In this document: positions 3,262-7,137 of the stretch, piece after piece
How the letters are laid out: each line of letters starts with the position of its first letter
Numbering within the stretch: position 1 is the first letter of the stretch
Assembly: GCA_001412365.1 (NCBI GenBank)
Contig: LKUE01000136.1
Coordinates: 1 to 7,137 of the forward strand
DNA length: 7,137 bases
Origin: Desulfuromonas sp. SDB
GTDB taxonomy: Bacteria; SDB-A
Direction: 5' to 3'
Program-made: the position numbers and the translations under genes
The notes under the pieces: model-generated
Databases searched by the model: none
The model's input: only the letters and a program-made list of their open reading frames with translations
Told to the model about the DNA's origin: nothing

Positions 3262-3972
3262 TTACCACAGCCAGTTTATTTTACTGAAAAGTCTCTCTCC
3301 GGTTTCCGCATCAAATATTTGAAGATAATATCCTGCCGCTTCATCACCGGCTAATATAACTTTATCGCCAATAACCTTGATAAAAACTTCATTTTGGTAA
3401 ATGCTGTGGGGTACCATTAATTGTTCAACATCCCCTTTCCAAATTTCTTCTCCATTCCGGACATCCAGGCAGACCAAGCCGGCTCCGGTGGATATTAGGT
3501 CATAGATTGCAATATAGATATTATTTCCCCCCAGAGGAAAAACAGCTTTTAAATATTTACCGAAGAATAAATGCAAATCTGGATCATATATCCATAAAGT
3601 ATCTTTGTTTTCTTCATCTCTCAATACAAGCTTACTTCCTACAATAACATCTTCCTGTTTTACCTCTTCAATAGTCAGTATTCCTATCAGGGAATCGGTT
3701 TCATAAGCCAGAACCTCCCTGTTTTCCCATATCTGAATTGACTGTCCCTGATGGCTTAACTCCGGATTATCCCACTTTACCGTTTCTTCACTTACATCCC
3801 AAAACACATTATGTTGATTAATTGCAGATGAATCAACAAATTCCAGTTTATCCAGGTCAAAAATCCAATCTTTAAACAATATTAATTTATCCAATTCACC
3901 AATTTCCTCATCAGCAAATAATAATGTTCCTGAATATAGAATTAGCAGCAGTACAATAATAGTTTTTATCAT
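3262..3972 (-). CDS. secreted PQQ-repeat-like protein, paralogue B
   Basis: This 236-residue exported protein is paralogous to the one encoded at 1691-2392. The signal peptide covers about residues 1-20 (MIK, hydrophobic core, likely cleavage after LLFA before DEE). It has no lipidation cysteine. The layout matches the paralogue: LFKDWIFDLDKLEF (32-45), FWDV (57-60), WDNPEL (67-72), YDPDLHLFFGKYLK (129-142), then two PQQ-like units ending GLVCLDVRNGEEIW (165-178) and IFDAETGER (219-227). One histidine, the HS pair at H189-S190, is conserved with the paralogue, as is the acidic GDEA. The start is the ATG at 3972, behind AGGGGGAG at 3-base spacing. It follows the DUF4332-like gene by 21 bases and precedes the ZIP transporter by 29. 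Possible roles are a metal-binding or envelope scaffold protein. No enzyme motif is visible, and function is unknown. Confidence 0.8.
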   Translation of the reverse strand: MIKTIIVLLLILYSGTLLFADEEIGELDKLILFKDWIFDLDKLEFVDSSAINQHNVFWDVSEETVKWDNPELSHQGQSIQIWENREVLAYETDSLIGILTIEEVKQEDVIVGSKLVLRDEENKDTLWIYDPDLHLFFGKYLKAVFPLGGNNIYIAIYDLISTGAGLVCLDVRNGEEIWKGDVEQLMVPHSIYQNEVFIKVIGDKVILAGDEAAGYYLQIFDAETGERLFSKINWLW

Positions 3973-3993: not shown

Positions 3994-4698
3994 CTATTCC
4001 TCCACAATTTTATCTAATTTACGAGCGCTTTCAATATTATGAACCAGATCACTGGGATTGGGTACCATTCCATCCCAACCTGATTCTTTGACAAACTTTA
4101 CAAAGAATTCATGCAGTTCATCCGGTTTAAATTTTGCAATTTTATCCGGTGAATCAAGTCCGGCATCGTAGTAAAGGCGGGTTAATTTAGTTTTGACATA
4201 TCCCAAACGGGTAAGATCGGATAATTTTACCAATTCCAGAATTATCTTTTCCGGAATATTCAGCTTTGTTGATAATTCTTTTCTCTGTTTACCGGTTTTT
4301 CCCTCTTGCAGCATTTGCTCAACATTCATAATACCGTAATCTTCCAGCTTTTTTACATAATTTTTATTAATTCCCATAAACTTGCAGATTGGAAATATTC
4401 TTCTGGTTTTTTCAGTTCTGCTCCGGCGTAGTCTGCTGGTGTATTTTAACAGATCATTATCTTCCTTGAATTTAAAATAATTCATCAGTACGTACAGTGT
4501 TCCTTTAGCTGATTTTTTCTCTTTTTCAGTATCATCTACATAAGCTTTTATGTCTCCTGAATTCACTTCCTGTATTTTTTTACCTCTATTTTTAATTATA
4601 TATTCATTAAATTTTTGGATAGTGCGGATATTTCGGTCAATTACACTTGATTTTTTCCCCTTTATCTTCAAAAACTTTTCAAAATTTTTTTCATTCAT
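3994..4698 (-). CDS. SAM-like (integrase N-terminal) and DUF4332-like HhH protein
   Basis: This 234-residue, basic, probably cytoplasmic protein appears to combine two DNA-binding folds. Residues 1-85 look like the SAM-like core-binding domain of tyrosine recombinases: a FLKIKGKKSSVIDRNIRTI helix, then IQEVNSGDIKAYV, then SAKGTLYVLMNYFKF. The catalytic domain with its R-H-R-Y residues is absent. A basic linker (90-101, RRSRTEKTRR) follows. Residues 105-230 resemble DUF4332 or helix-hairpin-helix repeats, with GINKNYVKKLEDYGIMNVEQML (109-130) and LGYVKTKLTRLYYDAGLDSPDKIAKF (165-190) showing the alternating 'pass the gate / slot position' pattern. The domain calls are from pattern memory. The ATG at 4698 is supported by GGAG six bases upstream. 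It is the first gene of the leftward operon, beside the divergent promoter region, so it might be a regulator or nucleoid-type DNA binder. It does not look like a decayed integrase, because the C-terminal half is a coherent different domain. Confidence 0.7.
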   Translation of the reverse strand: MNEKNFEKFLKIKGKKSSVIDRNIRTIQKFNEYIIKNRGKKIQEVNSGDIKAYVDDTEKEKKSAKGTLYVLMNYFKFKEDNDLLKYTSRLRRSRTEKTRRIFPICKFMGINKNYVKKLEDYGIMNVEQMLQEGKTGKQRKELSTKLNIPEKIILELVKLSDLTRLGYVKTKLTRLYYDAGLDSPDKIAKFKPDELHEFFVKFVKESGWDGMVPNPSDLVHNIESARKLDKIVEE

Positions 4699-4845: not shown

Positions 4846-5583
4846 ATGAAAGATAATCCAGATAGATATTACATAGGCACTTCAGGTTGGAATTATACCC
4901 ACTGGAAAAATGTCTTTTACCCTCAAGAAATTTCTAACAAAGAGTGGTTTGATTTTTATTCTGAAAAATTTAAAACTGTTGAAATCAACTACTCCTTTTA
5001 CCGTTGGCCTGATAAAAAAACAGTTATGAAGTGGAAAAATCAAGCTCCAGGTAATTTCAAATTCACCTTAAAAGCTTTTAGGGGAATAACCCACTACAAA
5101 AAATTAAAAGAAGTACACCAGGATATTATTAAATTATACAAATTAGGCAACTTACTGGATAAAAACCTTGGCTGTTTCCTTTTCCAGCTTCCCCCAAGCT
5201 ATACCTGCACCAGCAATAATATTAATAAATTGGCAGATTTCATTGATATTCTGGACAGCAGAAGAAAAAATGTGATTGAGTTCAGAGATGGCAAATGGTG
5301 GAACAGCAAAATTTTCCAGATGTTGGAAAGGAAAAAAATTGCCTTCTGCAATGTTTCCGGATTGAATATGCCTAAACAAATATTCCCTACTGCTGATTTT
5401 TATTATCACCGGCTGCATGGAGAGCATTACTCCACCAAGTACTCCCCTCAGGAAATAAATAAACTTGCCCAACAAATAAAAAAACTATCTGCAAAATACT
5501 ATTACATCTATTTCAATAATGATAAAAGCGCCTATGCAGTTGAAAATGCCCGGCAATTAAGAAATGAGATTGAAAATGCCTGA
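4846..5583 (+). CDS. DUF72 family protein (YecE-like TIM barrel)
   Basis: This 245-residue protein is a full-length member of the DUF72 family, whose TIM-barrel structure is known but whose reaction is not. Every family block is present in order: IGTSGWNYTHW (10-20) and FYP (24-26), TVEINYSFYRWP (44-55), FKFTLKAFRGITHYKKL (71-87), LGCFLFQLPPSY (108-119), VIEFRDGKWW (143-152), YYHRLHG (186-192) and YIYFNNDKSAYAVENARQL (220-238). The residues that line the barrel mouth in the family (E47, H83, Q114, E145, R147, R189, H191, N224, N225) are present, so the active site looks intact. It opens the rightward transcription unit at an ATG with no visible ribosome binding site. Its TGA stop overlaps the start of the DNA glycosylase gene. 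That tight coupling to a repair enzyme suggests a nucleic-acid-related job, but this is inference. Confidence 0.93.
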   Translation: MKDNPDRYYIGTSGWNYTHWKNVFYPQEISNKEWFDFYSEKFKTVEINYSFYRWPDKKTVMKWKNQAPGNFKFTLKAFRGITHYKKLKEVHQDIIKLYKLGNLLDKNLGCFLFQLPPSYTCTSNNINKLADFIDILDSRRKNVIEFRDGKWWNSKIFQMLERKKIAFCNVSGLNMPKQIFPTADFYYHRLHGEHYSTKYSPQEINKLAQQIKKLSAKYYYIYFNNDKSAYAVENARQLRNEIENA

Positions 5584-6349
5584 GTTGCCTGAAGTTGAAG
5601 TTTACCGAAGTTATCTTGCCCATACTGTGCTGCACAAAAAAATTGAAAAGGTGCACATTTTTAAACCGGAAATATTGACTTTTTCAGCGGATAAAATAGC
5701 TAAACTTAAGGGAAAGAGTTTTCAAGATACCCATAGACACGGCAAATATTGTTTTCTAAAGATTTCTTCAGATCTTTATCTTGTTCTTCATTTCGGAATG
5801 ACCGGCAGTATTGAGTATTACCGGGGAAAAGATGATCCTTCTTACAGCGCAGTTGTTTTTTCATTTTATGAAGGTCATAAGTTTTCAGTGATAACTAAAA
5901 GAAAATTAGGAAAAATCTACTTAAGTTCGGATATAAAGGAATTTATCGAGCAGAAAAATCTGGGACCCGATGCTTACGACTTAGGTAAAAAAGAATTTAT
6001 CAATATTATAAAAGCAAAAAAGGGAAAGCTTAAATCAGCATTGATGGATCAATCTTCTATTGCCGGAATTGGCAATATTTACTCAGATGAAATACTGTAC
6101 CAATCAAATTTAAGACCAGATAAACCGGTGGAAAACTTAGATGACAAAGCTATCCGTAGAATATATGCAAAGATGCAATCAGTTTTAAAAACTTCGATTA
6201 AACATAAAACAGATTTTGATAAAATGCCCAGAAATTATCTGCTTCACCGTAGAAAACCAGGATCAGCATGTGGAAAATGCAGGGGGAGCATAGATAAAAC
6301 TGAAATCAGTGGAAGGAGTACCTATTACTGCCCTCAACACCAAAGATGA
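5576..6349 (+). CDS. mutM: Fpg/Nei-family DNA glycosylase and AP lyase
   Basis: This base-excision-repair enzyme removes oxidised bases and cuts the strand by beta/delta elimination. It is 257 residues from the chosen ATG. An ATG at 5564 would add four residues, but catalysis needs proline right after the initiator Met, and MPELPEVEV begins at 5576. Visible elements are catalytic P2 and E3, K57 in HGKYCF, HFGMTG (72-77) with the intercalating M75, the helix-two-turn-helix MDQSSIAGIGNIYSDE (157-172) with N167, and the zinc finger from 232 with R247 (SGRSTYYC). The finger is C232-C235-C252-H255, with His in place of the usual fourth Cys. The usual DPRRFG loop reads TKRKLG (107-112). The segment before the finger (213-227) is short, so the 8-oxoguanine capping loop may be missing. 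Lesion preference may therefore differ from E. coli MutM; the symbol marks the family only. It overlaps the DUF72 stop by eight bases and is followed by a DNA ligase. Confidence 0.93.
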   Translation: MPELPEVEVYRSYLAHTVLHKKIEKVHIFKPEILTFSADKIAKLKGKSFQDTHRHGKYCFLKISSDLYLVLHFGMTGSIEYYRGKDDPSYSAVVFSFYEGHKFSVITKRKLGKIYLSSDIKEFIEQKNLGPDAYDLGKKEFINIIKAKKGKLKSALMDQSSIAGIGNIYSDEILYQSNLRPDKPVENLDDKAIRRIYAKMQSVLKTSIKHKTDFDKMPRNYLLHRRKPGSACGKCRGSIDKTEISGRSTYYCPQHQR

Positions 6350-7137
6350 AACTTCTTTTCAGCATCTAATTGAATTATTTTTAAAACTGGAAAAGACCAC
6401 TTCTCATAAAAAGATTATTGACCAAATAGCATCCTATTTTGAAAAAATCAATGTCTCCGATGTCAAAAACTCAGCTTATCTAGTGTTAGGGGATATTGGA
6501 CCAAAATTTGAGGATAATGACTTGGGGATAGGAGATAAGACCGCATTAATCTCTATTGCCCAAGCATTTAGACGAAAAAAACAGGAAGTTGAAAAGATAT
6601 TTGAACAGCAAGGAGATTTGGGAGATACTGCGGCGTATTTTAATTCAAAAAAAACTGGAAAGTTAACTGTACAGAAGGTTCATAAAAAACTGGTATCCAT
6701 TGGAAAATGTTCTGGGGAAGGAAGTACCCGGAAGAAGATAGATATTTTAGCCGAACTTCTTCGAAACTCATCCATAAATCAATCTAAATATATTTTAAGA
6801 ATAACCATGGGGAATTTACGGCTGGGATTCGGTGAACAATTTCTTTTGGAAGGATTAACCAAAGCATTTACTGAAGATATTGAAAATAAATCTCTAGTCG
6901 AGGATAAGTACCAATTAAATACAGATATTGGTCTGGTTGCTGAATCTCTGGCTAAAAACGGGATCAAAGGAATTAAAAGATTTTCAATAAGCCTGGGCAG
7001 GCCCCTGCAGGCAATGCTGGCTAAAAGGATTGATAGTTTAGAAGAATTAAATAAAAGATTTCCCCAAGAAATGGCAGTTGAGGAGAAATATGATGGGGAA
7101 AGAGTTCAGATACATCTAAAAAATGAAAAAGCAGAAC
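6309..7137 (+). CDS. ATP-dependent DNA ligase, 5' part (runs off window)
   Basis: This ligase seals nicks through an adenylated lysine. About 276 residues are visible and the rest lies beyond the window. The N-terminal DNA-binding domain is of the archaeal/eukaryal Lig1 type: LIELFLKLEKTTSHKKI, then AYLVLGDIGPKF, LGIGDK, QGDLGD, SGEGSTRKK, the DNA-contacting TMGNLRLGFGE, and RPLQAMLAKR. The nucleotidyltransferase domain begins with motif I, EEKYDGERVQIH, whose lysine codon is at 7086-7088. The frame is open from 6294 to the edge, with no interruption. The start is uncertain: GTG 6309 is used here (lysine at residue 260). ATT 6324, five bases after GGAAGGAG, is an alternative. The ATG at 6346 overlapping the glycosylase stop is out of frame. 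The gene overlaps the glycosylase gene by 41 bases if GTG is right. Its presence beside Fpg/Nei points to nick sealing in repair. Bacteria normally replicate with an NAD-dependent ligase, so this one is probably accessory. Confidence 0.9.
   Translation, partial: MEGVPITALNTKDETSFQHLIELFLKLEKTTSHKKIIDQIASYFEKINVSDVKNSAYLVLGDIGPKFEDNDLGIGDKTALISIAQAFRRKKQEVEKIFEQQGDLGDTAAYFNSKKTGKLTVQKVHKKLVSIGKCSGEGSTRKKIDILAELLRNSSINQSKYILRITMGNLRLGFGEQFLLEGLTKAFTEDIENKSLVEDKYQLNTDIGLVAESLAKNGIKGIKRFSISLGRPLQAMLAKRIDSLEELNKRFPQEMAVEEKYDGERVQIHLKNEKAE

Follow-up and report, generated by a model that had tools for sequence, protein, structure and literature searches.

Genes for DUF72 proteins recur beside DNA repair genes in distant lineages, and the family quite probably has a role in DNA repair. 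In the window, i.e. the whole stretch of DNA analysed here (one whole contig of 7137 bp from a 3.14-Mb genome in 433 contigs), a DUF72 gene stands head-to-tail with genes for an Fpg/Nei-family DNA glycosylase and an ATP-dependent DNA ligase, all on the plus strand. The idea of DUF72 as a DNA repair enzyme is not new in outline, as it has already been proposed from structure, with a repair role of TM1631 predicted in 2013 (PMC3828134, PMC4939058). The present analysis adds how broadly DUF72 is linked to repair genes, for which we do not claim priority.

Gene organization of the window

The first of the three genes (4846..5583, plus strand) encodes a DUF72 family TIM-barrel protein of the short type (P0001, 245 aa). 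It is followed by a gene for an Fpg/Nei-family DNA glycosylase/AP lyase (P0002, 257 aa; 5576..6349, plus strand) and by the 5′ part of a gene for an ATP-dependent DNA ligase of the archaeal/eukaryotic ligase I type (6309..7137, plus strand), the start of which is uncertain. The sequence and its translations place an overlap of exactly 8 bases at 5576..5583 (plus strand), where both the ATG of fpg (5576) and the stop codon of DUF72 lie within ATGCCTGA. The sequence-only reading had given overlaps of 8 bases and of up to 41 bases. The former is exact, and the latter is an upper bound that assumes a GTG start of the ligase at 6309. The domain identities that it had assigned to the three products were all confirmed by Pfam. 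The 3.14-Mb genome contains one copy of each of these families, and the three genes probably form one co-transcribed unit.

Upstream of the three genes, the gene at 3994-4698 (minus strand), divergent from DUF72, encodes a possibly DNA-binding protein with a weak match to an integrase-type SAM-like N-terminus and a DUF4332 domain. Two related PQQ/BamB-like secreted proteins (1691-2392 and 3262-3972, minus strand) are encoded on either side of a ZupT-type zinc transporter gene, apparently as the result of a duplication.

The glycosylase and the ligase

P0002 matched PF01149 (3.7e-26), H2TH (PF06831; 7e-20) and zf-FPG (PF06827; 1e-4), all over the Pfam cut-offs. Like bacterial Fpg/MutM, it has all the catalytic landmarks, including the MPELPE N-terminus (P2 and E3), K57, N167 and R247 (in GRSTYYCP), and the same domain order. 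However, it scored below both NCBIfam fpg equivalog cut-offs (176.3 against 212 bits and 173.7 against 203.3 bits), and belongs to a subfamily under these cut-offs. It also differs in its fourth zinc ligand, which is a histidine (His255), and in the alphaF-beta9 loop, which about 10 residues form in Lactococcus Fpg and which is missing from P0002 in the alignment. The alphaF-beta9 loop of Fpg helps hold 8-oxoguanine. Therefore, oxidised bases other than 8-oxoguanine may be the preferred substrates of P0002, as judged from its alignment.

The ligase showed matches to the N-terminal domain PF04675 (122 bits; 3e-35) and to the start of PF01068 (33 bits), and its nearest solved structures were 3rr5, 2cfm, 4eq5 and 2hiv. 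Motif I reads KYDG (residues 260-263), in agreement with KxDG, with the catalytic lysine at K260. The reading frame stops with the contig end (7137) at residue 276, 16 residues past this lysine. The only standard in-frame start is the GTG at 6309, which gives the 41-base overlap with fpg. The ligase domain begins at codon 16 (nt 6354), past the fpg stop, and archaeal ligases start close by. A candidate alternative start is the in-frame ATT at 6324, five bases 3′ of GGAAGGAG, which doubles as coding sequence for the conserved GRSTYY of Fpg. An ATG at 6346 overlaps the fpg TGA in the typical ATGA manner and lies one base out of the ligase frame. Therefore, an assembly indel near the T-run at 6356-6359 is possible.

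DUF72-Fpg pairs in other genomes

DUF72 and the archaeal-type ligase were absent from three other genomes of the same family, one of which carries an Fpg of the ordinary kind that differs from P0002. Hence either this lineage acquired the cassette or its sisters lost it, and the cassette is not a conserved block. The exact DUF72-Fpg-ligase triplet was found nowhere else in the sampled loci. The genes of the nearest DUF72 relatives, in Cloacimonadota (L063) and Pacearchaeota (L064), do not adjoin Fpg or ligase genes, and neither do the P0002-subfamily Fpg genes of four genomes (G242, G047, G182 and G027) adjoin DUF72. No match was obtained when viral contigs were scanned with DUF72 and with Fpg. 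In Rhizobium phages of about 206 kb (L062, 5995-7252), a DUF72 gene overlaps a gene annotated as a DNA recombination-mediator protein. The Bradyrhizobium plasmid pCC829_1 (L059, 5827-9351) carries genes for DUF72, an FAD-dependent oxidoreductase and an ATP-dependent DNA ligase consecutively on one strand.

A DUF72 alignment, scanned against genomes taken one per species, yielded 80 loci. Among them, Salinimicrobium nanhaiense (L095) has an Fpg gene of the P0002 subfamily directly 5′ of DUF72, with an ATGA overlap. Across 199 genomes of Flavobacteriaceae, an Fpg/Nei match was found in 10 and DUF72 in 91, nearly all of the latter being of a longer type; the short type occurs as six copies in four genomes. 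DUF72 lies directly 3′ of Fpg/Nei in 4 of the 6 short-type copies against 0 of the 88 long-type copies, those with unread flanks being scored by match coordinates (Fisher’s exact test: p = 5e-6). The association by presence gave p = 3e-6. In three of these pairs (L095, L402 and L403) the partner is an Fpg of the P0002 subfamily (40-42% identity), and in G516 (L410) it is a quite different Nei-like gene. A P0002-type Fpg followed by DUF72 was also found in an unrelated family, f69 (G604; L441). Two other f69 genomes (G341 and G212) have a third kind of Fpg in the order Fpg-DinB-DUF72-helicase, and in G212 a gene that looks LexA-like by eye from its sequence lies 5′ of Fpg. Thus, the linkage is not confined to the genome of the window, as the pairs recur elsewhere, while the exact triplet is so far seen only here.

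Related metallo-beta-lactamase-fold genes adjoin DUF72 in Flavobacteriaceae and in G242 (L095, 6717-7402, where the gene is split over two frames; L402, 99-782; L403, 3008-3718; L182, 5680-6390). Apparent DUF72 fusions of 370-612 aa, mostly at GC-rich loci, were rejected by eye as probable upstream read-through of long open frames.

Repair genes in the neighbourhood of DUF72

DUF72 matches were found in 186 of the 386 sampled genomes, and the family also occurs in E. coli, B. subtilis and archaea. The neighbourhood survey covered 229 DUF72 loci in 203 groups at <75% identity, with up to 5-6 kb per side. All open frames around DUF72 were clustered without preselected families, and the top clusters were then identified by Pfam or, for Fpg, by homology. 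The commonest neighbour clusters were DinB, PolX, an MrfA/Hrq1-type helicase, LigD and LigA, and Ku and Fpg also recurred; most of the other recurrent clusters consisted of frames that overlap DUF72 or of common housekeeping genes. Three loci (L202, L295 and L273) gave weak PolX matches that probably reflect PHP/HHH and were discarded.

With the window excluded, 36 of the 202 groups had at least one gene of the repair set (DinB, PolX, LigD/ATP ligase, LigA, Ku, Fpg and the MrfA-type helicase) within 2.5 kb; 82% of the surveyed groups had none. At this distance, DinB was found in 15 groups, LigD/ATP ligase in 10, PolX in 9, Ku in 6, the helicase in 6, LigA in 4 and Fpg in 3, where a rough Poisson expectation, assuming one copy per 3.2 Mb, is about 0.44 groups per single-copy gene. 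In 20 groups, DUF72 and the repair gene shared a strand and were no more than 150 bp apart. Two of the 36 linked groups come from loci (G341 and G212) that were added, not blind, after their Fpg proximity was known. As controls, 39 loci of ZIP transporters drawn from that genome sample showed no linkage except for one weak helicase match, a significant difference from DUF72 albeit with a small control (Fisher’s exact test: p = 0.001, or 0.008 with the weak match counted). Restriction to the loci from the genome sample gave 25 linked groups out of 134 (p = 0.001 and 0.007, respectively). In a quick tree of the 203 DUF72 proteins with many weak forks, the 37 repair-linked rows required 32 changes. 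Therefore, the repair linkage appears to have arisen or been lost many times.

The recurrence of particular cassettes is stronger evidence than the control comparison. DinB directly adjoins DUF72 in 16 of the 18 DUF72-bearing f69 genomes, and in about half of these 16 an MrfA-type helicase lies on the other side of DUF72 within the 1.5-kb flank. In f99, the order DinB-DUF72-MrfA was found in seven of seven genomes, and extra DUF72 paralogues of this family lie beside LigD. Both of these bacterial families thus conserve the DinB-DUF72-MrfA cassette (L177, L178 and L441-L478), with the Fpg variant added in G341 and G212, and it looks like an SOS-type repair operon. At other loci (L265, L277, L257, L302, L477 and L478), DUF72 lies directly beside LigD, often near Ku, as part of end-joining loci. 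Of the three DUF72 copies of genome G367, one accompanies DinB/MrfA and the other two lie around Ku/LigD.

It was noted in 2025 that DUF72 is somewhat enriched near polB2, together with SRAP (PMC11791011). Like our survey, this is an enrichment near a damage-induced translesion polymerase. However, the partner is PolB2 in that study, Fpg and ligase in the window, and DinB, PolX, LigD, LigA, Ku and MrfA in the survey. A literature search, with most subscription journals outside its reach, found no paper tying DUF72 to ligases and no report of DUF72 with DinB, PolX, LigD, Ku, LigA, MrfA or Fpg.

Fold and conserved pocket of DUF72

P0001 matched PF01904 over profile positions 1-216 of 217 (199.4 bits against a cut-off of 25.3; 1e-58). 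Its AlphaFold2 model (pLDDT 96) is a TM1631-like barrel with the conserved pocket and matched TM1631 (1vpq) with Z 28 at 27% identity. TM1631 and EF0366 (1vpy, 1ztv) share the family, the fold and the pocket (Z 26-28; 23-27% identity). Unlike the window, however, no operon with a glycosylase and a ligase is described for them, and their function is predicted in silico only (PMC3828134, PMC4939058).

After DUF72 structures, the model matched sugar epimerases, MbnB, UVDE and endonuclease IV (Z 14-16), the epimerases (Z 15-16) scoring slightly above UVDE (14.4) and endonuclease IV (14.1). In a Foldseek search, UVDE was among the first non-DUF72 matches (E = 6e-4). The comparison with endonuclease IV and UV-endonucleases that the sequence-only reading had proposed shows a likeness, but sugar epimerases match equally closely, so the modelled fold alone does not choose between a nuclease and an epimerase. 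UVDE (3tc3, 4gle) and endonuclease IV (5zhz) share the TIM-barrel architecture with DUF72, whereas their identity to it is 9-13% and DUF72 appears to lack a conserved His set for three metals. The many His ligands of a three-zinc site were not among the invariant residues of 81 aligned DUF72 sequences. All 81 keep E46, N48, F51, Y52, K76, E145, R147, R189, H191, N225 and D226, and H83 and Q114 are kept in 80. Within this conserved set, the only possible metal ligands are H83, H191, E46, E145 and D226.

Docking and molecular dynamics, both computational, placed residues of TM1631 at the DNA phosphate (PMC3828134), and a later QM/MM study, also computational, argued for Mg ions. By alignment, the proposed phosphate residues N44, K72, Q114, R145, R191 and H79 of TM1631 correspond to N48, K76, Q114, R147, R189 and H83 of P0001, each conserved in 80-81 of the 81 sequences. 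The predicted pocket, with its invariant or nearly invariant residues, thus fits a phosphate or DNA ligand.

Possible role of DUF72

The earlier suggestion that DUF72 is a repair candidate is well supported by the Fpg pairs in Flavobacteriaceae and in the unrelated f69 and by the survey of 202 groups, in which repair genes were the most recurrent neighbours. We consider it likely that the window carries a base-excision-type operon in which DUF72 prepares the strand or end. The Fpg/Nei enzyme would remove the damaged base and nick the strand. DUF72 would use its conserved, positively charged phosphate pocket to bind DNA that is damaged or broken, and would cleave or unblock a phosphoester ahead of gap filling and sealing. 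The gap would be filled by a polymerase encoded elsewhere in the genome, and the ligase would seal the final nick. That the DUF72 step comes after incision and before sealing is a conjecture compatible with the modelled pocket, and that DUF72 performs a specific end- or lesion-processing reaction is suggested here only tentatively.

The barrel, being equally near to sugar epimerases/isomerases and to DNA nucleases, would also suit an enzyme acting off DNA, i.e. a sugar- or nucleotide-phosphate isomerase, epimerase or hydrolase that is co-expressed with repair genes and sanitises the nucleotide pool or clears up a repair by-product. Judging from strand order, E145, H191 and D226 may lie where epimerase metal ligands could be, and a NUDIX-like gene is found 5′ of DUF72 in the Pacearchaeota locus. 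However, the polymerases, ligases, glycosylases, Ku and helicase that accompany DUF72 all act on DNA, and conserved residues touch DNA in the docking and dynamics model of TM1631 (PMC3828134). We therefore regard a role off DNA as unlikely. It is quite improbable that the window merely records chance or a horizontally acquired block, with DUF72 having no functional tie to Fpg and ligase. The uniqueness of the triplet in our sample, the lack of DUF72 and ligase in related genomes and the other neighbours of most DUF72 genes are in keeping with such a history, but it has already been weakened by the DUF72-Fpg pairs that occur independently, with overlapping ends, in other lineages, and the overall enrichment of repair genes and the short overlap of coding sequence at 5576-5583 also stand against it.

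Returning to a role in repair, DUF72 may, as a possibility that we put forward with reserve, be a widespread, hitherto unrecognised family of DNA repair phosphoester enzymes and a shared module of many repair systems. Such a module could conceivably span base excision with Fpg/Nei, translesion synthesis with DinB or PolB2, gap repair with PolX and LigA, end joining with Ku and LigD, and repair with the MrfA-type helicase. The Fpg-DUF72 pairs of Flavobacteriaceae and the DinB-DUF72-MrfA cassettes of two families are test cases at hand, and the pocket shows which residues to mutate. Should DUF72 prove to be a repair enzyme of general use, a basic component of DNA repair in bacteria and archaea would have been overlooked.
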